A stretch of DNA of 64,000 bases from Dryococelus australis (Eukaryota > Arthropoda > Insecta > Phasmatodea > Phasmatidae): contig CM057009.1 in assembly GCA_029891345.1 (NCBI GenBank), positions 307,808,666 through 307,872,665 on the forward strand, in the 5' to 3' direction. A model generated the notes under the pieces. That model did no database searches. It saw nothing but the letters and a program-made list of their open reading frames with translations, and had not been told where the DNA came from. Shown here in pieces: positions 2,933 through 56,515 of this stretch. Position numbers and translations under genes: made by a program. Every line of letters begins with the position of its first letter. Positions within the stretch are counted from its first letter, which is position 1.

Positions 2933-3084
2933 AGGCTTTTGAATATTGAGACTTTTGTTGCAGCAGTATAGAGCAATGCCATTAAAATGCATCGCATTTA
3001 CTTAGTATCATGCAAAATTGAATTTGACAACAAAAGCTGTAGCAATCCATTAGTTTTACTGTAGAAACATTATCACAAACACTC

Positions 3085-6711: not shown

Positions 6712-7407
6712 CAGCAGTAACAGCAATACGGTTCCAGGCACGTAGGCAATACCAATACTTCATGTAGGGATTCTCTTACCGACTGTTGCCTGGAACACAT
6801 TGTCGGTTGCCCAATCGTGGGCTTCTTAATGCACGCTATTGGTTGTTTACATTACGTAATAAATGTTCTCCGCCATGGTTTTTTACTGTGGTAACAGCAG
6901 CTTACCATTCACACCATAGAGGGCGCATTGCCTATATACTAGGCGCTGTATCACAGCAGCGGAATCTAGCGGAATTTTTGTGTGCGGTTTAAACGAAAAC
7001 GGTGGGTTCTCGGCAGTTGCAAAAAGAGGGCCATTTTTATTTCATAGGTCAAACTACTCAATAAACAAGCATCAAACGTTCATAATTCCCGACAGTTACG
7101 AAGTTTCCGACAATATGAGGGTGGCCACCCCTGTTATTTTCGTAACTTGGAGTGGTGTTACTGTCAATTTGCTCTTAGGTCGACGATCCCGACAACATAA
7201 ACCAGTGTTCCGCAAATTGTACTCTCATCTCACCTGGTTTCCGATATTTCGCAAAGATACATTCCAAAATATTCATTTTTGGAACTTATTGCGCCCTTAA
7301 TACTTAGTTTAGGTACAAGATGTCCTATATATTTGCCACTTGATATTACATAAGGAATTAAGGAATCATTTCACGAAGATTGTCGGTATAACTCAGCCCC
7401 ACCCTGT
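6712..7407 (-). repeat. right arm of the long inverted repeat pair
   Basis: Reverse-complement homologue of 2,250-2,932, with the same block order and a (TA)n tract just outside. Homology may extend a little further inward toward 6,570, where the left arm has no counterpart because it runs into the mariner-containing DNA. Confidence 0.85.
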
Positions 7408-20829: not shown

Positions 20830-21742
20830 GGACGACTGGTGCGACGGGAGAACAGGCTTGTAAGGAGGACAGCGAAAAATGTGCCGGGAGTCGAGAGGGG
20901 ATTGCAGTCTCCGACAGAGCTTCGTGTCGACCAGTTGTGCGGTGATCTTTTATTCAGCAGATCTGGGCGAGCTTGCCTGGCACTACCGGGCTGTGACTCT
21001 GCACTCCAGCTCACTTCATTTCTCTTCGAGTGTCCGGACGGTCGAGGCGGCATTACGTCGTGAACGTGTGCTCAACATCGTCGAGCGGCAGGTGGACGAA
21101 GCACACTTCTTCCTGAGAACAACTCGGACAGTGGAGGCAGTATTACGTTGTGAACGTGTGCTCAACATCGTCGAGCGGCAGGTGGACGAAGCACACTTCT
21201 TCCTGAGAACAACTCGGACAGTGGAGGCAGTATTACGTCGTGAACGTGTGCTCAACATCGTCGAGCGGCAGGTGGACGAAGCACACTTCTTCCTGAGAAC
21301 AACTCGGACAGTGGAGGCAGTATTACGTTGTGAACGTGTGCTCAACATCGTCGAGCGGCAGGTGGACGAAGCACACTTCTTCCTGAGAACAACTCGGACA
21401 GTGGAGGCAGTATTACGTCGTGAACGTGTGCTCAACATCGTCGAGCGGCAGGTGGACGAAGCACACTTCTTCCTGAGAACAACTCGGACAGTGGAGGCAG
21501 TATTACGTCGTGAACGTGTGCTCAACATCGTCGAGCGGCAGGTGGACGAAGCACACTTCTTCCTGAGAACAACTCGGACAGTGGAGGCAGTATTACGTCG
21601 TGAACGTGTGCTCAACATCGTCGAGCGGCAGGTGGACGAAGCACACTTCGTCCTGAGAACAACTCGGAAAATAAACTGGAAAATAATACTGCGTGACGGC
21701 CGCGAAATATTTTGTTCGTATTCACCCCGGCAAATACAGTAA
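20830..21742. repeat. 90-bp minisatellite, seven copies, open in both directions
   Basis: A 90-bp unit is repeated seven times from about 21,045 to 21,676, nearly without divergence. One site alternates tcg/ttg across copies as C,T,C,T,C,C,C. Because 90 is divisible by three, frames stay open: 287 codons on plus (20,879-21,742) and 254 on minus (21,016-21,780). The plus unit is a 30-residue block beginning TVEAVLRRERVLN and ending FFLRTTR. No family is recognised. The upstream 200 bases are GC-richer unique DNA. I treat this as a satellite, not a gene. Confidence 0.9.
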
Positions 21743-29830: not shown

Positions 29831-30839
29831 ACCTGAACTGTGTTGTGATTACTTCTGGAATTAATTGGGGTCCTGCTGCGAGATTCTAAGTTCTCTTCTC
29901 CTCCGGTTATTTATTCTGAATACATTGTACACTATCACCCCTCTCCCCTACCTACAACCCCTCCACTCATCATCCTCCTCTCCACAGATATGATTAAAAC
30001 CCTCCCCAACCCCTTTTCCATACATTCCCTCCCAGTGAGGTAGGCTGTCTTCACTTCCACACATGTATGTTAGAAAGCATTGCTGCAGCCATCGGCAAAC
30101 CATTTTAGTTGTAGAGTTAACCACCAGAAACGCTAATGCCTGTTGATGCCGTCATCGGCTGCTAGGTAGCACGCAAGTTCGATGAATCGATTACATTGTG
30201 GTTGCATCGCCTGCCAGTGAGCGCACGAGTCGCTCGCCTGACACGGACACTGTTGTTTATTGCTATTAGCTGCTGCTAGGAGCACTGGAGATAGGATGAA
30301 AGCTTAAGACAATTTTCTTAATCATATATGTTATGCATTAGTACAATATAAAAACTTTACTCAATGCCTTTACTTTCTTGACCTTGAGAGTATTCAAAAC
30401 GGAGTCGTAATAAAGTAATAAATAATAAATTGCGTACAAAAGTGATGTATTTATATTAATATACGTAAATAAAACTTTAAAATTTTCAAAAATACATATA
30501 TGACGCAACATGATCACGAACTAGTATTTTAAAGCAGATCTAGTTTATATGATCACAATGACCAAATATTCAAAATGTAGTTTTTATATTAAAGAACTGT
30601 CTTTAAATTGAAATACACAGTTATTAATTTTTACAAATAAATATATCGACTAACATGTATAAATATTAATATTTGTTAGACATATAAGAATATGTATAAA
30701 AAATTATTATTTAACTATAATCATCGCCATCTTGGATTTTAGTATTTTATTTTTAAAATAATTATGTAAATACTCCGATCATCAAATACAACGCATCGTT
30801 TACTTTCAACAAGTAATTTAAGTCCTAAACCCTTTCTAG

Positions 30840-31330
30840 CAAGGTCAATTATGAGTTAAGCCCTTTTATAAATATAGGCATTATTTCCGAACGGTTGATG
30901 CTATAGGGATAAATTTCATAATATAGACACCGTATCCGATATTCATCACGGAGGTAAGAGAATTTAAGCCTTAAAACCTTACCACCAAGGTAAATTAGGC
31001 ATTTAAGCCCTTTTATAAATATACTCATAATTTCCGAATCACTGGAACTATAGGGATCAATTTCATAACATAGACACCGTAACCAATATCCAGCACAGTG
31101 GTAAGAGCATTTAAACCCTAAAACCTTTCTACCAAGGTAAATTAGGCATTTAGGCACCTTTATAAACATGCTCATAATTTCCGAACCACTGATGATATGG
31201 TCATCAAATTCATAACATAGACATCATACCCTATATCAAGCATAATGGTAAGGGCATTTAGGTCTTAGATGCTTTCTAGCAAGGTCAATTATATGTTTAA
31301 GCCCTTTTATAAACATAGTTTGCCATAAGC
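30840..31330. repeat. ~147-bp degenerate tandem repeat (about 3.3 copies)
   Basis: The segment TAAGCCCTTTTATAAA recurs at ~30,856, ~31,005, ~31,151 and ~31,297. Between copies recur CATAATTTCCGAA, ATAGGGAT(A/C)AATTTCATAA and CATAGACACCGTA. The minus-strand open frame through it reflects the repeat, not a gene. Confidence 0.85.
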
Positions 31331-31369
31331 TCACCATGCTCGTACTCATCAAGGACATATTCACCAACG

Positions 31370-31870
31370 TAATATTATTTCATTTCCGATTTTAATCAAA
31401 TTTTATTTGTGACTTAGCTAGGCGCTAGACTTACTTAATGTTATGCTAAGTTCAGATTTTGGAGTTCGAGACTTGGCCAAGAAACATAATATTTTTTCGT
31501 TTCCTATTTTAACCAAATTTTATTTGTGATTTTGGTAGATGCTCTGGGCAATTAATTTAATGTTAATATCGGGTTTTGGAGTTCGATCCTCTGTCAGGGC
31601 ATGTGATATAATTTCATTTCCCATTTTAGCCCATTTTTATTAGTGACTTGGGTAGGCGCTAGGGCCAATTAATGTAATGTCAATTTCGGATTTTGGGGTT
31701 TGATCCTCAGTCAGGATACATAGTATTATTTTATTTCCGATTCTAATCAAATTTCATTTGTGACTTGGGTAGTTGCTAGGCTTACTTAATGTAATGGTAA
31801 TTTAGGATTATCTAATTCGAGTCTCGATCAGAACATCTAACATTATTTTATATCCGAATTTAGCATAGAT
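31370..31870 (+). repeat. ~117-bp degenerate tandem repeat with tRNA-like B-box
   Basis: Four-plus units begin near 31,377, 31,493, 31,609, 31,727 and 31,844 with ATTTCATTTCCGATTTTA-like sequence. Each holds TTTGTGACTTGGGTAGGCGCTAGG and a segment like GGAGTTCGATCCTC, which matches a pol III B-box. The unit may be a tandemly amplified tRNA-derived SINE head. Confidence 0.75.
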
Positions 31871-34800
31871 TTAGAGCTTATATGTATCCCTGCTTATAGT
31901 AATTAATGTAATGTAATTTTTGGATTACCGAGATCGATTCTAAGGGGACTCACTTAATAGTTTTAAAAAAAAATTCTGTGAAATGCAATTTTAAAGATTC
32001 ACTTACGATTGCTGTCTATCATATTACCTAATCTGGCTCTACTGCTCAACTAATGTGTTATATGTTTGATGTCAACTTTTGAAGGTTAAGAATGGTGAAG
32101 GGGAATGCAGGTATGTGATGTAATCATGTAATTAACATAATCGTGAAAATCCAAAATTTGCATAAACATACAATTAATATTTACTAGGTATGCACATACA
32201 CATGTGAATAATAACAACTAAACATTCACCAAAGTAATATATCCTCTCAGCAAAGCAGTCAAACTTCAACTGTCATGTACCTTTTCATTTGTTTCAGAAT
32301 TTTCAATTAGTATTATTTTTTATTATTATTAGGTGTGGAAAGTATTACACTCACACTATGCTAGCATTCACTATACACGCTTATAAAGTATGCACATTAT
32401 ATGTAGAAAGACATATGTTCGCTCCCGAGGAACGATAGCTCAAAACTAAAACCTTGCCATAAACATATTGTCCGCGATTTTCAATGTCTACCAACAACCA
32501 CAGGCAAAATATTTCAATGAATTACTTCGATAAACCATTTCATCATGTAATAGAAAAAACACACACATCAACCCCTACAATAAACAAGACGACAAGGTCA
32601 AACACACCTATAGCCCTTTTATAAGCATAATAACTCATAATTTCCCATATACCAAAGCTACAATCATCAAATTCATAACATACACATCAAACCCAACAAC
32701 AAACATGACTACTAGGTCAAACACACCTAAAACCCTTTTATAAGCATACTAACTCATAATTTACAATATACCAAAGCTACAGGCACCATTTCATAAAACA
32801 CACATAAACAAATAAAACATAAAATATTCAAATTGGCAAACCCGCTTCACCCAAGAATTGCTCCTAATGAACCAAATTAAACCAGATCAAGCCAAAATTC
32901 ACCCAAAACGAAAAAATTCTACAAAACACACACACTCACATAATTCATTTGCACATTTCATACCAGGCAACCAAAAAATCCCATACCATCAAACTTTATA
33001 AGCGAAACTATAATCTTGACAAATATATCAACATATCATACAACTAAAATGAACAAAACATACAAAAACAGTCACAATCATATAAACCATTTCAAACTAT
33101 GTTACTTTCAAAATAACACCCAACTTGCAAAACCCCAAACTTCAATCTTTACAAGCAAAACTAAATACTCAACACCTAAATAAAAAACTATCATACAAAA
33201 CATATGAACAAATCTCCATCATCTGTCTTCCAATACACATTATGACATATATTTAATTTAAAGTATAATTTTATAATTTAAAAAAATCCTTACCCATATT
33301 CAATTTTTCTAATTTACTATATAACATATTTTAAAACCAAATTAAGATCCAAATAAACACTTGTCTCACTCAAATCATGTTATCCCACATTACTGTTTAT
33401 CTCATATGAGATGGCAAGATTTTGAGAGGATGTGAGTGGCAACTTGACATAAACAAAACAAAGTGCTGTTTACGAAATTGTGTATCAGCTGATGGATGAA
33501 TGAACAAAGTTAATATTAAGTTGGCTATTCTTAGTGTGTTGCCGACGAACATAATAAAAGTGCAAAATAAGCGATAACAAAGAGTTCTTAGATTAATTAA
33601 TATAATTTATTTTATGTGGTCACAAAACAGCAGTTGTAGTTGTTACTAGCTAATCTTCGTGCTAAAGTAGTAATGTATGGGTGCTCAAAATGAAACACAA
33701 TAAGACGATTCATAGCCGATTAAACACGACTTCAAAACTTAGATATTTTCATGTCGTATTCCAACTGTCGTTCCATGCTTTTCATATGAGCTTGATATTA
33801 ATTCCAAAAGCATACAGAAATATTGCATTGTAATATTGAATTATTTTTTCAAATAATTTGACGAAATATATATTTCAAATTCGTATCGTTTCGAGGCAGT
33901 AATAGGAGAAAAGTCAAGTTTATAAAGCAGGCTTTAGAGGCAGCGAACCTGCTGCAATCTGTCAGTACTGCACGTGACTTACACACTTTACAGTGTCGTG
34001 GGCGCCATCTGTGGGCTCTTTCTCGAACCTAACCAGCTATAAATCTAAAGTGAATATGTTTTGTATGTAAAATACCAAATTTACGAACAGATACCAATAG
34101 TTTTATTTTTCCCTCAAGCCTTGTGTAATTTATAAAGTAACATATATTTCGTGTACAGCGATTATTATTACTAGTAATTTCTATTGGGCCAGTAGTTGTC
34201 CGTCTATGTCCTAAATACGCCATGTTTTTTTTCCCCAGAAACCCATTTCCTTGTTTTCGCATAGCCTCCAATTGACACATCAGCTGATGGTGAAAGGATA
34301 CGAAAACTAAAAGTAAACATTCGTTGAACTGTCAAAATCATGCCATCCTATATGAGATGGGCAGTACATGTAGCAATCAAAACATGTTTATTACATAAAA
34401 ACTCCATAATCAAAGAATGTATGTTAAGATCTGCTCTTTTTAACAGTTGATTCGATACTTCTAGAATACTTTAATCTTATCTGTGTAACAAGAATTTACA
34501 CAATTAAACCTTCTTTCATCTCACAAGAAGCTTAAGATTTGTTTATATGTAACTATATTTATCTACTTCGTAAAGAATAAAAAATCAAGCATACGTACTG
34601 ATTTAGTCAATACTTCAGCCTAAATGCAGGTATGTATAGTCGGAAGACCAGGAATGCAGAGGAGTAACAAGTCACATTTTCCTGAAGAACTGAGGGAATG
34701 TAGTTGGGCACGCACGGTACCAGCAGCAAAACTCCCAACTGGAAATGTGTTTCAACACACGAGAGAAACAGCTAGTTGACCGCAGTCCAAAGTTGAAGCA

Positions 34801-41639: not shown

Positions 41640-42725
41640 TTAATAAAATGTTGGTTGCTTAGCTTTGACCCAACAGAAAAACACTTGACTATTTCTAACA
41701 GCACATTCACCAACCTTTTACCAACCATCAACAAACCATTAAAAATAATATAAGAGTTGTTGGTGTTTGTTTGTTTTTCTGATCTAAAACACCAGCTGCC
41801 GATTCGAGCACAGCCGCAAAAAGTGACTGCAAAAGTTGCTTTAGAATGCAACTGCAAAAAGTGACTGCAAAAAGTTGCATTTGGGAACAGGTCCCAGTCA
41901 CCAGAAAACCAACAGTAAATTGGATGCTCTAGTCATCAGAAGATCAGCAGTAAATTAAATTTGTGGAACATCAGAAAACCAACGGTAAATTGAATGCTCT
42001 AGTCACCAGAAAACATCAACTGCTGGTTCGAGCACAGCTCCAGTTATCAGAAAACCAACAGCAAATGAAATGCACGGGCCATCAGGGAAACATCAGCTGC
42101 CAGTTCGAGTGCATCTGCAAAAAGTGACTGCAAAAGTTGCGTTAGAGTACAGTTGCAAAAAGTGACTGCAAATGTTGCATTAGAGTGCAAGCGCAAAAAG
42201 TTGCATTAGAGTGCAGCTGCAAAAAGTGACTACAAAAAGTTGCAATGAGCGGCTCAGGAAAATTGCATACGTAAAAAACATATAATATTGTCCATAATAA
42301 AGATGGACCAGTTGCTGAATGTATTGAACGGAAACAACAATTTAAGAAACTTTCCGAACTTACAATCGGACAGACCTATCCCATAGACCATGCTGAAATA
42401 TCATATACACGGTATGGATACAAAGTGGTAATTACTTCCGGCAATTTTAAAGTAACCTTGCCAGACAGATATCTTCAGATTTTCAGCGAAAAAGTTTTAG
42501 ATGGTGTTAATCGTGGTGGTATAAATATTGCATATGATGCAATGGAGGATTGTTGCGTTAAAAAAAGGCATTGTATTCGGATTTTTAAAGAGTAAACGAT
42601 CGTCGTATTAGGCATCAGTTGATTTTTATTTATGCTCATATCTCTATAAAGTTTTAAATGTTATCCAATCATTAAAACACAATTATCGCTCTGACTTCGG
42701 CAGTGTGCTACAGCATAGTCTAATT
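41640..42725 (+). repeat. left terminal inverted repeat
   Basis: Matches the reverse complement of 55,455-56,515. The inner edge is sharp at GTGTGCTAC..AGTCTAATT (42,705-42,725). The outer ~450 bases consist of two kinds of internal subrepeat: ~38-base units of the type GCAAAAAGTGACTGCAAAAG, and units like CATCAGAAAACCAACAG followed by AAATTGAATGC. The inner ~430 bases carry the small TIR gene. Clear homology starts at ~41,770 (TCTGATCTAAAACACCAG). Weaker similarity reaches ~41,715 or further. Confidence 0.9.
42303..42595 (+). pseudogene. small TIR-encoded protein, left copy (frameshifted)
   Basis: Mirror copy of the gene at 55,586-55,879. After the start (MDQLLNVLNG) a single-base difference near 42,335 shifts the frame and produces a stop. 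The rest of the coding region is still recognisable on DNA comparison up to the shared end RIFKE-stop at 42,593. The frameshift is absent from the right copy. Confidence 0.85.
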
Positions 42726-42810: not shown

Positions 42811-42823
42811 TATATAATAAATG
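42811..42823 (+). promoter_or_regulatory. TATATAATAAATG start motif of polB
   Basis: TATATAATAA runs directly into the polymerase ATG at 42,821. The same TAATAAATG context precedes several other genes of the element (see 49,879, 50,995, 52,442, 54,548 and 54,580). Confidence 0.5.
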
Positions 42824-45800
42824 AGCACAAATAAAAATCAACCGACGCCTAATATGATGACGGCCTTGGCAATGAAAAAGGCTAACAGAGTTGGCAATGT
42901 TTCGAAAGAATATAATTTTAAGAAAGACATCATTACGAAAAGAAAGAAGAAGAAATCTCAAGATAAGCATGTCAAATGTGAAACATGTAGCCACTATTAC
43001 AAACCGTCTCTCATAAGAAGCCATCTTTAAAGTACATTGAACAAAGGTGTTACACCAATACGTAATAAATCACATGAGACAACAAATGCATGGGAAACTT
43101 TTAAAGTGCCACAACACTATATATCAAAACAGAAGCCCCCACGAGAGAAACAAGTGAAATGTGTAACGTGTAGCCACTATTACAAACCGTCTCTCATAAG
43201 AAGTCACTTCAGATGTAAAATTCATAAGTACACAACCATATTCAGTGTAGAAGAAATCGAAACAGCATTTCAAAGTAGGATCAAGACTTATGCTGTAAAG
43301 AATGTGAATGCATACAAGGACCCAAAGCATTTCCTAAATGATGTAAATGAAACTGTCACAGGGCTAATTTGTAAGCAATCAAAATCATTCGAAATGAACA
43401 TGAAATTCTTCACTGAGTACAAAAGAGGAATTGGTGAGAATATTGAATATGTAGAAAGCTCCTTTAAAACAGAGAACGAAATTATACTGAAATCGACTAA
43501 TCTTGAAGAATATTATACCAGCAGCATATCGAAAAACATAGCTGAGAGGGGGCATTCGAAGCAAAGGGATCTCAGTGGTTACTCAACAGAATATTTGAAC
43601 TAGAAGTGCGAATAAATATATATGTACCATTCAAGGGCAGTTCTTATGTTGATCTCCCAGAAAAAATCGAAACTAAGCAGGCGGTAATTAATGTTAAGAA
43701 CAATGATCAAAAATGTTTTTTGTGGTCTGTTCTATCTGCATTGCATCAAGTACAAAGAAACCCTCAAAGAGTGAATAAATACGAAGATTACGAACATGAG
43801 TTTGATGATGCACTTAAGGGTTTGGAATTTCCAATGAAATTGGATAGCATATCATGCTTTTAGAAGATAAGTGGAATTTCTATCAATGTATACGCATACG
43901 AAGAAGAAGATGGCAGTAAGAAATATATAATCTGTCCATAAAAAATAACAAAAAATAAGACGGATAAACACATAAACCTACTCTATATGAAAGACGAAAA
44001 GAACGACCACTACTGCTGGATAAAAAGTCTTTCGAGACTTGTCACATCACAAGTAACAAATAATGGCTACAAAATATTTATATGTGATAGATGTTTGCAA
44101 CATTTCTACTCTGTAAATAAGCTAAAAGATCACGGACAAGACTATCGAGATCATGATGGTGTTTGATTTGAACTACCATCTACAGGAAAAAATGGCATAT
44201 TAAGATTTCAAAACCAAAATCATTCTTTGAGAGTTCCGTTTGTGATGTATGCTGATTTTGAATGTTTGTTGACTAAAATCGAAACTTGCCAACCAAACCC
44301 CGACGAATCCTACACGAATCCATACCAAAAACACGAGCCTATTAGCTTCTGTTACTATTTAAAATACGAACATGGATACTATAAACTGCCAGTAACTTAT
44401 GAAGGGCCTGATGTATCTACTGTGTTCGTTAAAATGCTAATGGAAGAAGCAAAGTCTATTGGTGATATATACACAAATGAAAAACCAATGCTTCCACTAA
44501 CTCAGAAAGAACAAATTGTTTATGATACAGCTACCCATTGCCATATATGTGAAAATCCTTTGAATGGTGATTCTGCGAGAGATCATGATCAGCTTACGGG
44601 GAAATTTAGAGGAGCTGTACACAAAGATTGTAACTTATCGTATAGAAATCAATGTTTTGTCCCAGTGTTTATACACAATCTATCTGGCTATAACACACAA
44701 TTATTCATAAGGGATCTTGGCTTCGATGAAAATAAGATTAATCTAATTCCCAACAACGAACAAAAATGTATTTCTTTTATGAAGCACGTAATAGGAAGTG
44801 TAAATATTAGATGTATTGACTCATTTAAATTTATGGCTAGTAGTATCGATAAACTCTCTAGTAACCTTTCCAGAAGCCAATTCCGAGAAACATGTAAGCA
44901 TTTTTCCAATGAACTTCTTGACTTTGTTACAAGAAAAGGTGTCTACACATATGACTACATGGATAGTGCTGAAAAATTTTGTGAGACATCGCTCCATCCA
45001 AAGATGCATTTTACAACAAACTCAATAAATGCGACATTACAGAAGAAGATTTCGTATTTGCGAGAGAGATGTGGGAAAAATTCAACATAAAATCTCTAAG
45101 AGAAAAACACAGAACTCTATAACAAATCTGATGTGTTAATATTGTCTGATATAATGGAAAATTTTAGAGATGTGTGTCTCAAAACATATAAGCTAGATCC
45201 AGCATGGTGTTTCACAGCTCCAGGGATAGCGTGTGATGCTATGCTCAGACACACCAAAATAGAACTAGAATTATTAACAGATTATGACATGAATTTAATG
45301 ATAGAAAAAGGTGTTTGTGGTGGAATTTCACAATGTGGTTAGTGATATGCTAAAGCAAATAATAAATACATGAATGCTTATGACAGCACAAAGGAAATCT
45401 TTTATCTTACATTTCTGGATGCCAATAACTTATATGGATGGGCTATGAGCCAGTATTTGCCCTATGGTGGGTTTAAGTGGGGAAATACAAATATAGATGT
45501 TACAAAAATAGAAGATGATGCTAGCAAAGGGTATATATTGGAAGTTGATTTAAAATATACCCACATGAACTACACGATCTCCACAAAGATCTGTCATTGG
45601 CACCAGAGAATAAAATACCGGAAGGTTCTAAAAATCCCAAACTCTTGACTAGTCTGAATGGTAAAGAAAAATATGTATTACACTATGTAAATCTTAAGCA
45701 ATATCTGTCTCTCGGAATGAAGTTGAAAAAGATCAATAGAATTCTGGAGTTTGATCAATCAGATTGGCTCAAGTCCTATATTGATCTAAACAGAAATATG

Positions 45801-46480
45801 CAAACAAAGTCTACAAATTACTTAAAAAAGATATCTACAAGTTACAATTCCGTTTTTGGGAAAACAATGGAGAATATTGGAAACAGAGTGGGTATACGGT
45901 TGTGCACAAGTTCTAAGCAAATGGATAAACTAGTGGCTAAACCAAACTTTAAATATAGGACTATATTTACGAACTCTTTGGTTGCAGTTAATATGAATAA
46001 AACAAAACTGTGCTTTAACAAACCCATTTATGTTGGAATGAGTATACTTAATCTATCGAAAATGGTCGACCATTTTGATACTTCTGACTATAGAAAAGAT
46101 AATCCAAATGGTATACCGTTAGTTAACAAAAAGATTATTGGCAAAATGAAAGATGAATGTAAAGGAAAAATAATGGAATAATTTATTGGTTTGTAATCGA
46201 AAATGTATGCAATAAATGTGGAGGGTGAAGTAAAGAAAAGAGCAAAGGGTGCGAAAAACGCTGTAGTCAGAAATCAGATTAGTTTCGGCGACTACAAAAA
46301 GTGTTTGTTTGGTAAAAAAGTGTTGTATAAAAGTATGAATCTTATTAGAAGTAAGAAACATGAACTTTATACGGTTGAGATGAGGAAAAAACATTAAGTC
46401 CCGGAGATGATAAAAGATTTATTCTTAAAGATGGCATTAATACAGTACCATGGGGACAGTACAAAATTGAAAAAGAGTGA
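42821..46480 (+). pseudogene. Polinton family-B DNA polymerase, inactivated
   Basis: Protein-primed type polymerase that would replicate the element. Order seen: two near-identical zinc-finger-like motifs (TCSHYYKPSLIRSH) at ~42,980 and ~43,165; a conserved N-terminal block with KCFLWSVLSALHQ (~43,700); Exo I YADFECLL (~44,250); an endonuclease-VII-like CHIC..DHDQLTGKFRGAVHKDCNL cluster (~44,540-44,635); Exo II HNLSGYNTQLFI (~44,670), where the usual Asp and His positions read Asn and Gln; Exo III-like YTYDYMD (~44,950); motif A DANNLYGWAMSQ (~45,420); and motif B-like YNSVFGKTMEN (~45,850). Motif C (DTDS) is missing, apparently deleted at ~46,051-46,075. Stops occur near 43,028, 43,601, 43,861, 44,164, 45,088, 45,340, 45,646 and 46,180, with frame changes. 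The end at 46,480 is in a frame different from the preceding block. Confidence 0.93.
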
Positions 46481-46506
46481 TACTACGAAATATGATATAG
46501 CAGTAA

Positions 46507-47997
46507 ATGATTACCTTTACGATTGTCATCTTTATTTTGGTATCCTCCAGCAGAGGCAAAAATCAAACACGTTCCACAATAAAATATTTAAATGATTTTG
46601 GGTACTTAAAAATACCTGACAAAGATATTACACACACAAATTCATCAATAGTTTCAAACACTCTCTGGCTTTTTCAAGAGTATCACAATATAACAATTAG
46701 TGGTGAAATAAGTAAAGAAACACTAACACTAATCAAAACTCCTAGATGTGGGGTACCAGATGATATATTTGGCTTTTCTACATCTATTACCAAATGGACA
46801 ACGAAAGTAATAAAATGGCATTATGTGTTGGCCAATTATGACATGCTACAACTAAGTCAAGAAGTGTTTCATACATGGGCCAAACATACTGACATTCTGT
46901 TTAATCATGATACTCAAAATCCACACATAATAATATCAAACAAACGCAGTATCCATAGATTTCAAAAGTCTCGGCATTTATGTAATAGCAAATTTGATGG
47001 GAGAGGAGGAGTGCTAGCTCATGCTTTTTTCCCGAAAGCAGATAACACACCAGTTGAAATTCAGATTGATGCTGAAGAAGATTGGTATCTTAAACATGAC
47101 AACAAATCTCAAGGAAAATAAATCTTTTCACTGTGCTATTGCACGAAAGAGGACATGCATTAGGAATATATCATTCGCATGTTTACGAGTCTGTTATGTA
47201 TCCAATAAATGTCTCAGATCGGCTAACATTACAAACTGATGATAGTACAGAGTCTATATGGTAAACCTAAAAGATCTGTGCATTCTTTATCCCCTCCTAA
47301 ACCAAACATATTATTCTTTACAAAATAAGTAGGTTTGTGTAACTTAAAAAACATCAACACATTTTTAGTAGTCCTCCAAGTGATGTATATTTTTTATAAA
47401 TAATATGTTTGGACATATGACATAGTAGATAAAATAGTTAGTAAACCAGAGCTTATCACTAACTGGCTGTTTTTCTTACCTGCTAATTTTGAAAGCTTTA
47501 CATCGATGTATCAGAGACCATAAGGGGAAATAGTAATGTTTATGGAGTCAAATATATATATTTGAATATCCTAGTCTGCAACTCGTGTCTGGTTATCCAA
47601 AGGTTATTTATGATATAGGTGTACCTCAAAATTCCAAAATAAAAGCAGTTGTAAACACCTACTCTGGTGGTACTTTTGTATTTTATGATTAAATGTATTT
47701 GATGGAAATGGATGAGTGCTTATTCAGAACTAAATCTTTCGGTTTAATTTAAAAGAAATTTCCGGGTTTACCAGCTGGGTTATATTCTGTTTTAGATACA
47801 CCAATGGATCATTATACATCTTCAAGAACACAGCATACTATGCATTCAATGAGTTTACAAACATGTTGACCAGAGCTGACAAATTTGAGCTTTCAATGTT
47901 CAATGTAAAGTGTTCTACATTACCATCCTCATACTCAGATATCGTTAATCAGTTCAAAAAACAAGTGATGCAAATGGAGACGATCTCCGTACATTAA
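46507..47997 (+). pseudogene. secreted matrix metalloproteinase with hemopexin-like domain, captured by the element
   Basis: The frame from ATG 46,507 starts with a hydrophobic signal peptide (MITFTIVIFILVSSS). A peptidoglycan-binding-like prodomain follows and ends in the cysteine switch PRCGVPD (46,741-46,761). The catalytic domain includes FDGRGGVLAHAFFP (~46,995-47,035). After a frameshift near 47,115, the zinc site HERGHALGIYH (HExxHxxGxxH, 47,142-47,174) and the Met-turn YESVMYP (Met at 47,196) follow. After another shift comes SLYGKPKR, the usual catalytic-domain end plus hinge. From ~47,330 a four-blade hemopexin-like region is legible: a Cys near the start, PELITNW, the GEIVMF and GGTFVFYD blades, FPGLPAGLYSVLD, and a last blade NGSLYIFKNTAYY that ends with FNVKC. 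The stop is at 47,995. Substrate is presumably extracellular matrix or basement membrane. At least three stops and three frame changes kill it. It starts 27 bases after polB. Confidence 0.9.
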
Positions 47998-48019: not shown

Positions 48020-48543
48020 GCTTTTCATAGCATCCACAAGAAGCAATCAGAGAACATGTTAGAGAAAAGTATAGGCAATCATACGCAAATATAGGCCTGA
48101 GCGATTCGCTCACCCCTTTGAATATGCAGCCACATACCGTATTTATCAATGAACCAGGCTTGTACGCGTTGATCATGAAATCAAAGATGGCAGCGGCTGA
48201 AAAATTTCAGTACTGGATGTTTGAAGAAGGGTTGTCGTCCATACGCAAGCCCGGCGTCGACCAGAAGTATAAACCGCTGCTGGACACGACGAATGCAATC
48301 ATCGACAAGCACATGCTACCGCCAATGAAAGATGCAGGTAAACATCACCAGTTCATACTCGTCTACCTCGGAGGTATACACTACTATGCCATTAGATGCC
48401 AGATATGTATAGTACGTGAACGCATCGATGATATAAGGAACGAGTACCCCGGAGCGCAAGTGCTTCTGGTCATTGCAAACATCACCCACCTTAAGAATGC
48501 ACAACCTCTTATGCTTCAGATCACATTTAAAACACTCTTATAG
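48020..48543 (+). pseudogene. BRO-N domain protein (baculovirus repeated ORF type), N-terminally truncated
   Basis: An open frame follows an in-frame stop near 48,025. It begins HPQEAIREHVREKYRQSYAN and continues with the diagnostic VFINEPGLYALI and EKFQYWMFEEGLSSIRK blocks of the BRO-N DNA-binding fold (48,130-48,255). The C-terminal part (48,330-48,520), with QFILVYLGG, HYYAIRCQ and IRNEYPGAQVLLV, resembles the domain that often follows BRO-N in large insect DNA viruses (DUF3627-like; by memory). The expected first ~40 residues are missing or degraded, and no ATG is seen at the proper place. BRO proteins bind nucleic acid and are thought to affect viral or host transcription. It lies directly downstream of the MMP and convergent with the hexon gene. 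Confidence 0.85.
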
Positions 48544-48617
48544 CACTATTATATAACAGTAAATGTTTTTAATGGATAACTATTCATTAAAAACTAATAA
48601 CCATAATTGTTTGCATT

Positions 48618-49879
48618 CTATTGGGCTTCGGTGATTCTTTCACTTTTAACATCATAAATTAGGTTTCTTTGGCTTACGAGTACCACATTACAAATAGTTG
48701 AAGCCTATATTGGTTTATTAAAATCAACTGTAAGTTTCAGATTAGTTCGATCTATAACAATAGCTGTTTTTCTGTGACAGCAATCAATAACATACAATGG
48801 TCTTCTCCCAATAAATGATGCAGGGTTGAAGCGCAGTTCATTATTATGGTAAGGGGTATCTAGTTTAGTCTTTGAATTTCTAAAATCGTTGTAAGCAATA
48901 AACATCTTATTGTAAATTTTATTATCAATGTCTAAATTCCAATTCTCTTTGGGAAACTCTTCATTCCGTCCATTCTAAATAGAAATATTTTAGACGAAAC
49001 AAGAGTCAAAGATTGTACCGTGTGTGGTTTGCTCAGAATTTTCTTTTCTGTTTTGCTGAAAACAAACAATGGCAAAGTCTGTCATATCGAATTGGATTGA
49101 ATTGAACTGATCTTTTATATCAAACTGAAATGAGTTTGCATTAGTAGGTACTGGTTTTTCAAGCCATTGCCAATAATTAAAACTAATTAGAATTTTGGGG
49201 TGTTTGTATAATTTTTCTTTAATTTCATTTCCATAAATAGGATTGTATTCAAAAATTGGCCACAGAATTTCCAAGTTGTAAATAACAATTTTACCAGAGT
49301 AAGGTATTTTATCTACATCATCAGATCCAACTTCTTTCTTTGGAGGTCTTCTGTAAATCGAAACATCATCACTAGAATTTCGAATAAATGTGATCTTGTA
49401 CCCACCTTTCCAGAATATTTCATTACAGTCTCTCATAAACCCACACAAATATCTTAATGGATAGGTAATTTCGTTAGGCTTATCTCTCCTAACATATTTA
49501 CCTAGTTCTATCCCCAACATTTGGATGTATGCTGATTCTGATTCCGAACCTAACAATGTATGCATCATTGTTGAAGTGATGCCAGGGTTGTCAATACTTT
49601 CGATTATACAACCATGTTTAAATATCTCTATTCTTGAGAACTGGAATGAGAAGAAATTCTCACAGAGCTCAATAGTTGAAGTTTTTCATAAAGTAAATGT
49701 GAATCTCTTTGAATTAGCTCATACTGTTGGTATACATAAGCTTCATTCGGATGCGAAAATGTATCGCCAATTGGAATATCAAACTCGATGAGCTTGCTGT
49801 ATTCATTCAAATTATTTTTTGTTTGGTCGTTTGGCGGAAACGACTGACGTTCATAACTTTCAATTTTGTGTTGATCCAT
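48618..49879 (-). pseudogene. major capsid protein (double jelly-roll hexon)
   Basis: Starts at ATG 49,879 in a TAATAAATGG context. The N-terminal part has FDIPIGDTFSHPNEAYVYQQ, then a frame change near 49,640. The central part, from ~49,568 to 48,990, contains YPLRYLCGFMRDCNEIFW and IVIYNLEILWP. After a stop comes NPASFIGRRPLYVIDCCHRK and then, past another stop, the terminal VVLVSQRNLIYDVKSERI before the stop at 48,618. The order and ~420-codon length fit the hexon of adintovirus-type Polintons, which forms the icosahedral shell. Two to three breaks disable it. Confidence 0.8.
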
Positions 49880-49979: not shown

Positions 49980-51006
49980 TCATTTTCTTCGCAAAACTTT
50001 TTCCACTAAGTAGTCTTCATCATATTTGGTCTTAAGCAGCTCTGGCTCATAAAAAATACCTTTAATAAGTTCATTTTTTAAATCTTTTATTCTGTATGCC
50101 ATGGGTTTTCTGTGCAATACTTCACACACCTCAAATACTTCAGTGGACCAATTTGGTGTATATCCTTTTTCAAACAAATTCTTACTTTTACTTCTATGAA
50201 CTATTGCAAACTTTGGTTTAACCATTTTTCTTTCTCCTCCATACATTTTGATTAGAAAAAACCTTCATACTTTGCATTTACATTGGCGGGTTTCATTCAG
50301 ATTGTACTGTGAACAGTATTATTGTATTCCCTTATTAATTTAGGTAATATAGCCACCCATTTATAGTTTCCCTGCATAGTAAATAGCTTCCACATTTTCT
50401 CCTTCAATGTTCTATTAAATCTTCCTACAACACTAGCTTTCTTTCCACTGTATGTTGAATAGTGTTTTATGTTGTTGTTGGTCATTAATGTCTTAAATGA
50501 TTTATTGTAAAATTCTTTACCTTCATCTGTTTGTAAATGCATAGGTTTGGATCATTCAAAATAGTTTTAAATGCCAATGTAACATTTTCACCAGTTTTAT
50601 CTTTGATGGGTATTGTCCATTCATATTTGAAAAAAAAAAAAACATCTATCTAAGTTAACATATATTTAAAACCTGTGTTAATTCTATGTATACCTTTTAA
50701 AGATCCAGAATTCATCTCGACTAAATCAGCTTGCCAAAGATCATCGATACCGAAAGATAGAACAGTTATTCTGGGGAAGTTTTTTTGCATTGGTTTATGA
50801 ATTTCTTTTACAATATCGTTTTTTATACTATCACCAGTGAATAGCGGCGTTTTAGCATTATTGGAAAACATACACCTACAAACACACTTAATTCTTACTC
50901 TGTTATTATTGGTAAGTTTATATGAACTTGGTGTATTTTTCATACATTTGAGACAGTATACATTTAAGTTATCATAGTTCATTTTGTATAATAAATGAGG
51001 CAACAC
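49980..51006 (-). pseudogene. retrovirus-type (rve) integrase with zinc ribbon, inactivated
   Basis: Start is ATG 50,982 (or 51,006), read divergently from the DUF8207-like gene. The N-terminus has a zinc-ribbon-like CLKCMKN..KCVCRCMF. A conserved block KPMQKNFPRI precedes the first catalytic Asp in IDDLWQADLVEM (~50,740). A frame change and stop lie around 50,540-50,650. The second Asp is in HLQTDEGKEFYN (~50,520). The third position, normally Glu before RFNRTLK, reads Gly (codon 50,423-50,425) in KASVVGRFNRTLKEKMW. The C-terminal domain (GYTPNWSTEVFEVCEVLHRK, ~50,150) is the SH3/chromo-like part typical of Polinton integrases, ending at 49,980. A frameshift also separates core and C-terminal parts near 50,270. 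Confidence 0.92.
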
Positions 51007-52040
51007 AAAATTGTAAACAATATAGAGAGAAGACAGTTAATTGAAAAGTTTAAAATGTTCAGAAAAATTCGCCAAGATGAATATGATAAAAATAAAAAAA
51101 CACTATCAACCATTGATAGATGCGATACAAGATTTGGGGAAAAAAATTGGACACATAACAAATGAGAATCAGAACTTAAGAAAAGAACTTGTTCCAGTTT
51201 CTGTTAAGAATTTAGACTACCCACAGACACCAACAGAAACATCTTTTGAAAGAAAAGTGTTTGGTAAAACAGGCACTGATGAACACTATGGCGATGAATG
51301 CTATGGCGATGAATACTATAATGATGGCGTTAAACGCATTGACGAGGGCGATGAATGCTATGGCGATGAACGCTATGGCGATGAATGCTATGACGAAGCG
51401 ATGGGGCATTTGAAATCTAATATCCGTCAGTTAACTAACTTCAAAACAACCTTTATTGTTAAGAAAGTGGCCGATTTCTTAATTGACTGCAAGGGCAATA
51501 TTTTTGGGTTAAAGGCTGATAAAGGTAAATTGTATATTGGTGATAGCGAAGTAACATTCAACAATGACAAATTTATTATAAAAGGCCGAACATACACTGC
51601 AACCGATGGTTTGATGAAATTACTAACTAGTAAGAAAGTAATAGAAAGCGACTACACTGCAACCGACTATGAACACTATAGTCGTATCCTAACAGATACG
51701 AATGCAGTTTTTTAAAACAATGATCCAAACTTGGGAACGCCCAAATCGAGTAAAGGGAATAAATTGAAAATTATTGTTAAACCTATTTACGATTCGATTA
51801 AAAAGAAACGACCCTCACCAAAAAGGGGAAAGGTATACAGAAATATACAGACTACCCCAAAGAATACATATGGATGGATGATGTTAGGATGCTTATTGAT
51901 CGACTTCTTGTTATTTATGGTGAAGAGAATGCTGGAAATGATAACTATTACAATGAAAAAGTTGGAATAATGAATATGCTCAACAGCAAGTTTAGTGACG
52001 TTGTGAATAATCCAAAAAGTATACCATATCTGATACGAAT
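50995..52040 (+). pseudogene. DUF8207-like Polinton protein with Gly-Asp-Glu-Cys-Tyr repeats
   Basis: I choose ATG 50,995 because TATAATAA runs into it and the first 50 codons are charged helix (MRQHKIVNNIERRQLIEKF). An early frame change joins the longer frame from ~51,110. 51,280-51,395 contains imperfect 15-base repeats encoding YGDECYGDE-type units. The conserved domain (51,480-51,715) has GNIFGLKADKGKLYIGDSEV and GRTYTATDGLMKLLTSKK, ending RILTDTNAVF, a pattern I associate with DUF8207 proteins in insect transposon-like loci. A continuation after a stop has LGTPKSSKGNKLKIIVKP, and after a further shift DDVRMLIDRLLVIYGEENAG. Role unknown; possibly a virion core or accessory protein. Confidence 0.7.
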
Positions 52041-52424
52041 GTTAAACACAATACCACATACTTTTTGGGAGTCGGAGCATCACGGAAAAGGGTTACTCTA
52101 TGACATAATAAATTTGCTACCTTTTGAGATGCATGCACCCGGTTATTAGTACTTCAACCCAGGTACCAGACTAAAAGAGAGAATTGAGAGTGCTGATAAA
52201 CCCATTAATCCACTAGATGCGGCTGCAATGGAACATGATATAGCTTTTCATAATCATTAAGATATAGCTGAAAGACATGTAGCTGACAAAGAACTAGAAA
52301 AGAAAGCGTTCAAAAGATTGTTAGTTCAGATGGTGATCTCAATGAGAGATTGTGGGTTGGTGTTACTGGATCTGCGATGCACATGAAACGTAAGCTTGGT
52401 TGGGGAATTAAAATAAAATGGTAA
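52041..52424 (+). pseudogene. phospholipase A2-like domain protein
   Basis: The frame covering 51,970-52,149 contains HHGKGLLYDIINLLPFEMHA, then PGY, a stop, and YFNPGTRLKERIESADKPIN. The catalytic-type block DAAAMEHDIAFHNH holds the His-Asp pair of parvovirus-VP1/secreted PLA2-like domains. ERHVADKELEKKAFKRL follows. The final part is read in another frame with GDLNERLWVGVTG and ends KRKLGWGIKIKW-stop at 52,422-52,424. In related viruses this domain aids membrane penetration during entry. One in-frame stop inside the Ca-binding-like segment, another after HNH and one frame change disable it. The boundary with the preceding gene is uncertain. Confidence 0.75.
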
Positions 52425-53262: not shown

Positions 53263-53867
53263 AGATCAAATTAAAGAACGCATGAACAATATGAGATCAG
53301 TCCTAATGATTTTGTTTCCATCACACAGTTCAACGACTTTATAACCCCACTGACAAGAAATAAAAGATCATTGGATAAAACCTATTTTACTCGGAAGTAG
53401 ATAATAATATAGATTTTGAACAAAAAAGACTAAGACATGTGGGAAATCCCATTGCACCGATGGACGCAATCAATTTAGAGTACTATTAGAAAACCAGAAG
53501 TAACATTATTCGTTTAGTTGGGAATGACAATTCAAAAGAAAAAAATATATTTTACTTTGATAACCAAATAGAATATTTTTTTATGAGAGATGGAACTATA
53601 GTTGAAATAATAATAAAATGAGAAAAATATAAAAGTGTTATCAACTGTTATCATAAACGGAAAAAAATTGACATTCATAAAACTTTTGAAGTACACCCTG
53701 ATGATAAGATATATTTTAAAATACCAAAAGCCCACAATTTACCCGAAGGTACAATTGTGTTTGTTGAAATAGTTATGTTATATGAATACATTAAAAAAGA
53801 TCAGATTATGTTAGTTTTTAATGGAAGTGTTTCCATTAAAAACAAAACTTACAATCTAAAAATTTAA
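53222..53867 (+). pseudogene. fibre-like / tail-spike-like protein
   Basis: Starts at ATG 53,222 (MDICGNALMSSSIEDQIKER). Frame changes are frequent. The middle has LRHVGNPIAPMDAINLEYY, whose spacing resembles the NxGxPxxxxDAxNxxYxD motif seen in phage and virus fibre proteins. The C-terminal part has FFMRDGTIVEIIIK, HPDDKIYFKIPKAHNLPEG and IVFVEIVMLYEY, ending VSIKNKTYNLKI at the stop 53,865. Beta-rich composition fits an attachment fibre. This is an inference; stops near 53,400 and 53,490 break it. It is tail-to-tail with the ATPase, overlapping ~12 bases. Confidence 0.5.
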
Positions 53868-54548
53868 AAAGTCATTAATTTTATTACGATACTTGCCATT
53901 ATTTAACTTACAAGTCATATCTATTGTAACAAAACCATATTCATTATTCCAAAAATTTGAACATGTCTCCCTAAATTTCTCAAATGACATATCACCACCA
54001 ACAAAATCACTATGAATATGTTTAAGATTTGTATCGTCTTGTCTGAATATGCAAAGAAAATTAGCATTGTCTCTTATAAGCTGCTTAGGTACTTTTGAGT
54101 ATGTCTGAGCTAAATAGAAACAATCAATATCTTTGTGTCTACCACGAGTAAAGTAATCTCTTACCATATTTTAATTTTCAAGTATGATATCATCGAAAAC
54201 AACTACAGACTCTTTATGACATTCATTTACGTAAACCATTTCTTCATTTGATGGAAAGAAGTATGCTATTGGTTAATTAAATAATTTTGATGCTACATCT
54301 ATATCTTACTTTAAATTGATATATTTTGGATGGTCCAGACTTTTTGAACATACATAGAGAGTACCAAAGTCCAACCATCCCCGAGTATATATAAAATTAT
54401 CTATCATAAGTGTAGTTTTCCCTCAGTTACTAGGACCCACAATCAAACATCTAATATTATTATGTAATAATTCTCCATGATGTTTTGCTGATACAGTCTT
54501 GTCTGGTATTCTTATTTTTATATCCCAGTCTACATGTTTCTTGCTCAT
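53856..54548 (-). pseudogene. FtsK/HerA-superfamily (A32-like) packaging ATPase, inactivated
   Basis: Starts at ATG 54,548 (MSKKHVDWDIKIRIPDKTVS) in an AATAAATG context. The Walker A region reads VGPSN, a stop (TGA, plus-strand 54,424-54,426), then GKTTL. Later come LYVCSKSLDHPKY and Walker B ESVVVFDDII. After another stop the intact frame 54,167-53,856 has YFTRGRHKDIDCFYLAQTYS, KQLIRDNANFLCIFRQDD (sensor/arginine-finger part) and the C-terminal YGFVTIDMTCKLNNGKYRNK. Length (~230 codons) fits the family, which pumps DNA into capsids. Stops at Walker A, ~54,278, ~54,310 and ~54,170 inactivate it. Confidence 0.93.
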
Positions 54549-54579
54549 TTATTAATAGATTTTTTAAATAATGTAATAA

Positions 54580-55303
54580 ATGAGTAAAGTATTCAAGCAG
54601 ATAACAAATCAGTGTTGAATAAGAGACTACACTAACATTTAGAGATAAAGGGACTCTCATTGGCTTTAGTACAGTTCTATACTACTGATCAAACGCATAA
54701 CATAATGTCTGGGAGTAATAACCTATATTTTGTGGGTCAGAACGATACGGAATCATCAATTGATATTCCAGTTGGTCAATATAGCTTAAAAGATCTTGAA
54801 AAATTATAAAAGCAATTTTTTCAGTTAGTGAAGATTCAATGGGCAGGAAAGAAAATTATATATCTTTCGAGCTGGATAAAATAACAAACAGAGTGAAAGT
54901 AAAATGTATGCTTAAATTACAGTTTGGAAAACAGGGTTCAATAGAAAAACTTTCGGGTTTCGTAGAAAATAAAACTCTGAAAGCAAATGTGGATCATTAT
55001 GGTGATACAATTCCAAAATTTGCTCCATTTGAAGCAGTAAATAGACATTGTAATATAGTAAATGGTATGATATTAAAACATGATGAAAATAACCATAGAG
55101 AAACTAGCATAATTGCCACTTTTAAATCAAGAACAAGATTTGGATTTGGCGACACGCTCTATTGCGAACCAGCTTATCCATTATTTTTTCCAGTGCAAAC
55201 AACTCAAGTTAATGAAATAATAGTAGAAATTTGGGATAAAAAAGGTAAGTTAATTAACTTTCAATTGCCTGAAAGAACAGTGGTATTAGAGATGAAGCCG
55301 TAG
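54580..55303 (+). pseudogene. penton-like (single jelly-roll) capsid protein
   Basis: Starts at 54,580 (MSKVFKQITNQC) after AATGTAATAA, divergent from the ATPase with only ~31 bases between the ATGs. The N-terminal third is spread over frames: DTESSIDIPVGQYSLKDLEK is seen near 54,740-54,800. The last 154 codons (54,839-55,303) are open, with NRHCNIVNGMILKHD, ETSIIATFKSR, EPAYPLFFPVQ, then EIIVEIWDKKGKLINFQLPE and a short tail to the stop. The arrangement (Cys-Asn-Ile-Val-x-Gly, then Phe-Phe-Pro, then Asp-x-x-Gly-x-Leu-x-x-Phe) fits the Polinton penton, which occupies capsid vertices. Confidence 0.7.
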
Positions 55304-55454: not shown

Positions 55455-56515
55455 TAATTAGACTTTGTTGTAGCACACTGCCGAAGCCAGAGCGATAATT
55501 GTGTTTTAATGATAGGATAACAATTAAAACTTTATAGAGATATGAGCATAAATAAAAATCAACTGATGCCTAATACGACGATCGTTTACTCTTTAAAAAT
55601 CCGAATACAATGCCTTTTTTTAACGCAACAATCCTCCATTCCATCATATGCAAAATTTATACCACCACGATTAACACCATCTAAAACTTTTTCACTGAAA
55701 ATCTGAAGACATCTGTCTGGCAAGGTTACTTTAAAATTGCCAGAAGTAATGACCAATTTGTATCCATACCGTGTATAAGATATTTCAGCACAGTCTATGG
55801 GATAGGTCTGTCCAATTATAAGTTCGGAAAGTTTCTTAAATTGTTGGGTTCCATTCAATACATTTAGCAACTGGTTCATCTTTATTATGGACAATATTTT
55901 ATTTTTTTCACGTACTCAATTTTCTTGAGCTGCTCTTAGCAACTTTTTGTAGTCACTTTTTTGCAACTGCACTCTAACGCAACTTTTTGCGGTCACTTTT
56001 TGCAGATGCCCCAAACGCAACTTTTACAGTCACTTTTGCAACTGCACTCTAACGCAACTTTTGCAGTCACTTTTTGCGGATGCACTCGAACTGGCAGCTG
56101 ATGTTTCCCTGATGGCCCGTGCATTTCATTTGCTGTTGGTTTTCTGATAACTGGAGCTGTGCTCGAACTGGCTGCTGATGTTTTCTGGTGACTAGGGCAT
56201 TCAAATCAACCCGTTGGTTTTCTGATGGTCCATGCATTTAATTTACCGTCGATTTTCTGATGACAAGAGCATTCAATTTACTGTTGGTTTTCTGGTGACT
56301 GGGACCTGTTCCCAAATGCAACTTTTTGCAGTCACTTTTTGCAGTTGCATTCTAACGCAACTTTTGCAGTCACCTTTTGCGGCTGTGCTCGAATCGGCAA
56401 CTGGTGTTTTAGATCAGGAAAACAAACGGTAATTTTTTCTTATGGTTTTCTGATGGTTTGGGCATTCAATTTGCTGTTGGTTTTCTGATGGTCGCGGGCT
56501 GTGCTCGAATCGGCA
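55455..56515 (-). repeat. right terminal inverted repeat
   Basis: Reverse-complement homologue of 41,640-42,725. Same layout: inner small gene, then arrays of AAAAGTGACTGCAAAAGTTG-type and ATCAGAAAACCAACAG-type subrepeats. It extends ~80 bases further outward than the clear part of the left TIR, ending at ..CGAATCGGCA near 56,512. Confidence 0.92.
55586..55879 (-). CDS. small TIR-encoded protein, right copy (intact ORF)
   Basis: An uninterrupted ~97-residue frame starts MNQLLNVLNGTQQFKKLSEL and continues with IGQTYPIDCAEISYTRYGYK, NFKVTLPDRCLQIF and DCCVKKRHCIRIFKE. The start follows CATAATAAAG, a variant of the element's TAATAA(A)ATG start context. The T(x)YG...LP(x)R pattern recalls small uncharacterised proteins seen in other insect viral-type elements; a nucleic-acid-binding OB-like role would be a guess. 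It is the only element gene here with no visible break. Confidence 0.7.
   Translation of the reverse strand: MNQLLNVLNGTQQFKKLSELIIGQTYPIDCAEISYTRYGYKLVITSGNFKVTLPDRCLQIFSEKVLDGVNRGGINFAYDGMEDCCVKKRHCIRIFKE

Follow-up and report, generated by a model that had tools for sequence, protein, structure and literature searches.

The window, that is, the whole 64,000-nt stretch of Dryococelus australis DNA analysed here, probably carries a degenerate adintovirus-type Polinton (Eupolintoviridae-like), one of many copies, in which a variable slot between the polB region and the hexon gene holds an MMP of an old insect-Polinton lineage; this judgement covers the mechanism proposed below as well. The long terminal inverted repeats (TIRs) by which Polintons are recognised were found at 41769–42725 (plus strand; blocks 89–96% complementary) and 55456–56427 (minus strand), with a length of ~0.96 kb and arms 92% identical over 973 nt with gaps. 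No target-site duplication was recognised by eye in the flanks, and the exact end of the element is uncertain because the outer TIR is built of repeated subunits. Between the left TIR and polB, two open frames at 42821–43603 (plus strand) contain repeated CETCSHYYKPSL/CVTCSHYYKPSL stretches that look zinc-finger-like by eye, and both pieces were matched in 9 of 10 copies compared. Other repeats were observed elsewhere in the window: inverted repeats of 161 nt, 4.3 kb apart (2517–7138), which flank a mariner-like transposase frame (3163–3885, minus strand) assigned by eye and without a Pfam match; a 90-nt tandem repeat of seven copies with 98% matches and one open frame per strand (21035–21668); and three adjoining tandem arrays with periods of 147, 117 and 119 (30815–32809).

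The polB region was assigned by profile and position to seven frame pieces at 43546–46397 (plus strand), the first two by position only. The piece at 44167–45087 matched DNA_pol_B_2 below the cut-off (E=4e-4), and Endonuclease_7 on the same piece; DANNLYGWAM and NSVFGKTMENIGNR in this region resemble what we take to be polymerase motifs. The later part of the region has a 725-aa open counterpart in another copy (L031:4786–6960), in which Pfam and PHROGs found Endonuclease VII only, at residues 21–66 ahead of the presumed polymerase part, and no match was obtained with the polymerase profiles of Pfam and PHROGs or with PDB structures. An OTU-like N-terminal part of PolB is named for the adintovirus/Polinton group in PMC11071296.

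The MMP follows at 46507–47997, and its start codon lies inside a direct repeat, GATATAGCAGTAAATG (46494–46509, plus strand), that was recognised by junction comparison as the left edge of the cargo. The first piece (46507–47121, plus strand) comprises a hydrophobic N-terminus and a prodomain with PRCGVPD, and extends halfway into the catalytic domain (PF00413, E=3e-11, profile 8–102; pro-MMP-1 structure 1su3, E=3e-12), and the second piece, in another frame (47100–47264, plus strand), carries the zinc site HERGHALGIYH and the Met-turn VMYP (PF00413, E=1e-11, profile 103–151), both PF00413 matches being far beyond chance. The hemopexin part is left in four pieces, each in its own frame and 65–89% identical to an intact copy of the same genome. 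Its first half with the domain's first cysteine (47326–47520, plus strand) continues the frame of the first MMP piece with stops and corresponds to residues 278–299 and 315–341 of the intact copy (82 and 89%); the middle (47537–47692, plus strand, other frame) corresponds to residues 351–398 (83%), and the end with the last cysteine (47734–47997, plus strand) to residues 420–500 (65%). When three of these pieces were scanned alone with Pfam, only the end matched, below the cut-off (PF00045, E=0.046), and neither the remnant at 47440–47520 nor the middle one gave a match.

Compared with the intact copy, the window MMP has accumulated 4 frame-shifting indels and 5 in-frame stops, that is, this copy is a dead pseudogene. 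Natural frameshifting was considered as the cause of the three frames and rejected, because other copies read through in a single frame. The initial annotation had described here a complete secreted MMP in three frames, with signal peptide, cysteine switch, HExxHxxGxxH, Met-turn and a four-blade hemopexin region. Its start and end coordinates hold, the N-terminal and catalytic signatures were all recovered, and the profile search that it proposed detected Peptidase_M10 in the window and Hemopexin and PG_binding_1 above the cut-off in an intact copy. The three frames are likewise real, but their meaning as decay had not been drawn, so that "complete" does not apply to this copy; the hemopexin region is borne out by the alignment to the intact copy, but is weak by Pfam in the window itself.

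Downstream of the MMP, a Bro-N gene forms a second cargo (48031–48543, plus strand; PF02498, E=2e-15), and a second direct repeat, TATATAACAGTAAATG (48550–48565, plus strand), again recognised by junction comparison, closes the cassette of MMP and Bro. The hexon, a double jelly-roll major capsid protein, occupies three frame pieces at 48705–49879 (minus strand; PF21738, E=7e-9 on 48993–49685); its open counterpart in another copy has 418 aa and was recognised as a double jelly-roll protein (PF21738, E=1e-25), and a BLASTP search with the hexon returned 6 matches, none with an adintovirus name. The placement of the MMP between polB and hexon inside TIRs, as initially annotated, is thus supported by the TIRs and the downstream capsid gene, but the upstream polB is weaker by profile (see above). 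Frame pieces of an rve integrase lie at 49980–51036 (minus strand), one of them matching rve below the cut-off (E=0.004); an open frame in another copy matched rve at E=2e-11 and, C-terminally, a chromodomain just below the curated cut-off (E=1e-4), and was counted as the integrase of a Polinton. The gene at 51041–52149 (plus strand) has an open counterpart at L032:4180–5547, a 456-aa element protein with a C-terminal phospholipase A2-like domain (PF08398, E=2.5e-11) of a type known from parvovirus capsids. Pieces of a packaging-ATPase-like gene (53856–54681, minus strand) matched Pox_A32 below the cut-off (E=0.03), and an open counterpart in another copy did so just above it (E=6e-5) and was counted as the packaging ATPase. 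The last gene before the right TIR (54636–55303, plus strand) gave no profile match and is a penton candidate by position only.

The published D. australis assembly has 3.42 Gb in 17 main scaffolds with an N50 of 262.28 Mb, according to the genome report (PMC10268593), the main text of which contains neither "polinton" nor "maverick". When the first MMP piece was searched against this assembly (3.415 Gb), in which the window lies at C17:307808666–307872665, at least 151 matches with E≤0.001 were obtained, the window's own among them, a lower bound because only 150 of 2,409 candidates were scored. Thirty loci, one of them the window copy, were taken for comparison. All 30 had polB-region sequence upstream of the MMP and at least two hemopexin pieces downstream, and the first hemopexin piece was matched in all but L002 (29/30). 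A complete, uninterrupted MMP ORF of 500 aa without introns was present in 11 of the 30, with 5–40 differences per 1,500 nt between pairs of intact ORFs, so that an intact MMP at the same locus, which the initial annotation had proposed to seek in related elements, was found within the D. australis genome itself. The intact copies combine cysteine switch, HExxHxxGxxH and hemopexin in one frame. In one of them M10 (E=1.8e-32), hemopexin (PF00045, E=3.5e-7) and PG_binding_1 (E=2e-5) were all above the curated cut-offs, and its hemopexin part matched the structures of MMP-13 (1pex, E=6e-11) and MMP-14 (E=2e-10). The intact copy, and in separate pieces the window copy, show three features of an MMP (M10A), namely a prodomain with PRCGxPD, HExxHxxGxxH with Met-turn, and a hemopexin domain. 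Given the polB-region sequence upstream in 30/30 loci and the 11 complete ORFs, the MMP belongs to the element.

Ten copies compared on both flanks had one gene order wherever pieces were found; in L003 the frames that precede polB were missing, together with five of the seven polB pieces and two pieces further along, and in L020 the integrase and one other piece. The MMP occupies one position in all MMP-bearing copies compared, which agrees with the initial proposal that an adintovirus-type Polinton carries it.

To what extent copies without the MMP occur was evaluated from the hexon side. Among the best 100 of 21,766 hexon candidates, 39 were ≥97% identical, at least 27 of which had an MMP within 4.5 kb, and 61 were at 75–80%, at least 2 of which did. 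Because the list of MMP matches was incomplete, the flanks were compared directly at 9 of 12 young and 11 of 59 old loci without a listed MMP. At eight young loci (L097–L099, L111, L113–L116), the polB stop is directly joined to the hexon side via 69 nt identical to the element's own TIR. At this joint, the polB end of seven of the eight loci is 100% identical to an MMP-bearing copy (107–357 nt compared), and that of the eighth 99.7% (334 nt compared), indicating a recent loss or swap of the MMP, and the sharing of the joint by all eight suggests that it had a single origin. The ninth young locus, L112, had other DNA beside the hexon instead of MMP, Bro or TIR patch in the 280 nt read. Among the old loci, L102, L103 and L105 carry a clean empty site consisting of left flank, a single repeat and right flank, which may be a pre-insertion site or the result of a precise loss; at L100 and L104 (2 kb read) Bro is present and the MMP absent, L106–L110 (280 nt read) have a 26–70 nt stretch matching the 3′ end of Bro, and L101 has a Bro piece with other DNA and no MMP in 2 kb.

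The repeat pattern that bounds the cassette in the window occurred twice in 3.7 kb at ≤3 mismatches versus 0.11 expected, the pattern having been chosen after the junctions were seen. Its left member was recognisable in 10 of 13 old MMP-bearing copies (L019 diverged); the left joint is Bro-like in L007 and L012 and of another kind in L020, and the young copies L008 and L017 are without the left repeat. Bro was present in 4 of the 10 copies compared on both flanks, and it occurs with the MMP or without it, other copies having neither. These results demonstrate that the MMP is an optional cargo, as seen in MMP-less copies and clean empty sites, which is a new observation here. Since many copies are without it, spread within the genome cannot depend on the MMP; the gene would be useful but not essential, and may be lost, and perhaps regained, by recombination at short repeats.

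To assess selection on the MMP, 17 copies of a young subfamily and 13 older copies were compared, with the reading frame taken from one intact copy. The mean dN/dS was 0.57 among young (136 pairs) and 0.60 among old copies (78 pairs), vs. 0.26 between the subfamilies (13 pairs, each old copy being paired with L008). Of 17 codons fixed differently between subfamilies, 10 were synonymous and 7 nonsynonymous changes, whereas private changes in old copies comprised 97 synonymous and 327 nonsynonymous ones (Fisher p=0.002, to be taken as a guide only, given the low number of fixed codons and the shared history of the pairs). This pattern of substitutions agrees with purifying selection during the active life of the element and drift after insertion.

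For the descent of the MMP, the window MMP piece had its best match on a JGI contig, in an uncharacterised protein of 511 aa, and a search with this protein returned at least 532 matches (8,000 candidates scored). Among the 120 listed were "TPA_asm: collagenase [Ladona dragonfly adintovirus]" (P0027, 508 aa), from a virus classified in Eupolintoviridae, and proteins that bear the names collagenase, stromelysin or MMP in locust, planthopper, beetle, bug and ant. The tree that was built comprised 72 rows, namely 38 Polinton-like MMPs, so labelled by similarity before the tree and including two from D. australis, and 34 cellular or unassigned MMPs; the remaining matches, mostly vertebrate MMPs, were left out. 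A branch with support 100/99 separated the 38 from the 34, and a quick tree placed the same 38 together. Within the clade, the D. australis MMP groups with Schistocerca nitens (99/88) and then with the Ladona adintovirus (90/80). The element context is known for the D. australis copies and, by name, for P0027, the other 35 members being placed by sequence alone. The members P0022, P0024, P0025, P0032 and P0034–P0046, from locust, beetle, planthopper and ant, bear MMP, collagenase or stromelysin annotations; such members annotated as host MMPs may be misnamed element genes. Cluster sizes did not separate element from host MMPs, both reaching 37–44. The Hemopexin profile matched P0001 below the cut-off and gave no match in P0034. 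In a 24-sequence alignment the cysteine switch and the zinc site are conserved, and C281 is present in 24/24 and C473 in ≥90%. The four hemopexin blades of the MMP are predicted from sequence.

Relatives in viral contigs were searched as well. Neither the window MMP piece, the window polB piece, P0001 nor the hexon alignment had confirmed relatives in IMG/VR, and P0001 had none among phages and genome contigs. The MMP alignment hit 46 IMG/VR loci, none of which has the same architecture, because 0/46 combine a PRCG switch with ≥220 aa after the zinc site.

The clade differs from the other MMPs in two signatures. The S-loop H-x-D motif, which binds a structural zinc, was found in 31 of 33 scorable other MMPs vs. 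4 of 36 scorable Polinton-like rows (2 of the 38 were not scorable), of which by eye only P0016 has it at that place; conversely, a Cys shortly before FDG is present in 35/36 Polinton-like rows vs. 1/33 other MMPs. That this cysteine serves as a metal ligand is our guess, and the missing H-x-D is a changed detail that does not bar membership in the MMPs. An RX[KR]R of the furin type, no more than 45 residues from the switch, was present in 13/13 insect cellular MMPs vs. 0/32 of the Polinton-like rows that could be tested (of 36). In L008, the intact D. australis protein has no hydrophobic C-terminus of the fly Mmp2 kind. A clade that lacks the furin site, and largely lacks the H-x-D, of cellular MMPs is new here.

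How the MMP came to this position can be read in different ways. Insects have MMPs and the genome is repeat-rich, so a host MMP gene hit by an insertion, or swallowed in mis-assembly, was the reading by which the initial annotation would have fallen; it has next to no probability, because the same gene stands at the same place in 30/30 loci on many chromosomes, its intact ORFs are free of introns, and the host MMP lies elsewhere. With a locust MMP-14-like query, the latter was found as three separate exons on C3 at 51–67% identity, much closer to the locust MMP than the element MMPs (26–38%), and two further, unassigned matches were obtained on C11 (40%) and at C3:269506313 (35%). The MMP is accordingly a gene of the element, neither a host gene nor an assembly error. 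A recent separate capture from the element's own host or another arthropod, which the initial annotation had proposed as an independent capture, accounts for the clear descent from an animal-type MMP, but it is extremely unlikely given the phylogeny that was suggested to examine it: the gene nests with Schistocerca, the Ladona adintovirus and insect relatives in a clade that shares its S-loop cysteine and includes none of the 34 other MMPs sampled, a placement that speaks against a fresh capture. A single old capture may instead have given rise to an insect Polinton/adintovirus lineage of MMPs of its own, with an S-loop Cys in place of H-x-D and no furin activation, maintained by selection and carried in one polB/hexon slot as a swappable cassette that may hold MMP or Bro, the two together or neither; we give this full account an even chance of being correct.

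With regard to function, the infected cells would make the MMP and secrete it as a zymogen, which would be activated by prodomain removal via the cysteine switch and not by furin; the hemopexin domain would direct it to the extracellular matrix, and loosening of the basal lamina could then open the way for virions to other tissues or to the germ line. For a protein with switch, zinc site and hemopexin that is encoded in one element with capsid, integrase and ATPase, the best explanation is a spreading factor that acts on the basal lamina, and the crossing of basement membranes by the predicted MMP, already suggested initially, is plausible. In a baculovirus study, the basal lamina is treated as a barrier to be breached, and MMPs or other proteases are presumed to take part (PMC11865517).

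Two other roles were weighed against this one. MMPs cleave many non-matrix targets, and the clade's altered S-loop and lack of a furin site mean that substrate and activation may differ from those of host MMPs; the protease might thus act mainly on secreted host immune or growth factors, or in the exit of virions from cells. We regard this as unlikely but worth keeping in mind, as the retained hemopexin, with its matches to collagenase and gelatinase hemopexin structures, fits matrix targeting, and the paired cysteines C281 and C473 are kept. That the element carries the MMP as neutral passenger DNA and has no use for it would agree with the dead window copy and with the common MMP-less copies, some as young as the MMP-bearing ones; it is very unlikely in view of the 11 intact ORFs in 30 loci, the low dN/dS between subfamilies with its excess of synonymous fixed changes, and the conservation of switch and zinc site across the 24-sequence alignment.

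The preferred reading, a secreted spreading factor carried as optional cargo, has several implications. A transposon that only jumps within the nucleus would hardly need a secreted MMP, so the presence of a hemopexin-bearing one suggests that Polintons behave as viruses within the animal. Because intact and MMP-less sister copies occur in one genome, the role of the enzyme in spread between tissues or hosts can be tested by comparison. Annotations of insect MMPs may also mix host genes with viral cargo, and if one old capture and a swappable cassette are true, many "MMP" genes of locust, planthopper, beetle, bug and ant would be viral cargo.

A literature search, whose results were partly dominated by general MMP papers, found no paper on a Polinton MMP, and the texts of PMC11071296, PMC11071308 and PMC8363768 contained none of the MMP terms sought. 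We did not find a description of the single clade, its altered signatures, the signal of selection or the swappable slot. An MMP with hemopexin in an adintovirus is already known from a database record, and one in another virus family from print, so two statements of the initial annotation, that it knew of no described Polinton MMP and that insect viral MMPs lack hemopexin, have to be given up, the latter as a general rule. The deposited collagenase of the Ladona dragonfly adintovirus (P0027, a TPA record; Eupolintoviridae) is a full-length MMP of 508 aa with M10 and hemopexin, 42% identical to the intact D. australis protein and with the same S-loop cysteine; it comes from another insect order and is known here from its protein record, whereas the window copy is a pseudogene. 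According to the initial annotation, the MMPs of granuloviruses, which are likened here by description as MMPs of insect DNA viruses, lack hemopexin. Hz2V068 of Helicoverpa zea nudivirus 2, published in 2012, comes from an insect DNA virus too and combines a signal peptide and the active-site signature of MMPs with hemopexin; a role in tissue remodelling was proposed for it (PMC3280521). It differs in its 789 aa, its best match to an aphid MMP and its nudivirus origin, and is likened by description. Insect cellular MMPs (Mmp2-like; P0088, P0062 and others) share prodomain, catalytic and hemopexin domains with the Polinton MMPs, but lie outside their clade at 100/99, bear RX[KR]R near the switch and, like the other MMPs outside the clade, largely have the S-loop H-x-D that most members of the Polinton clade do not show.
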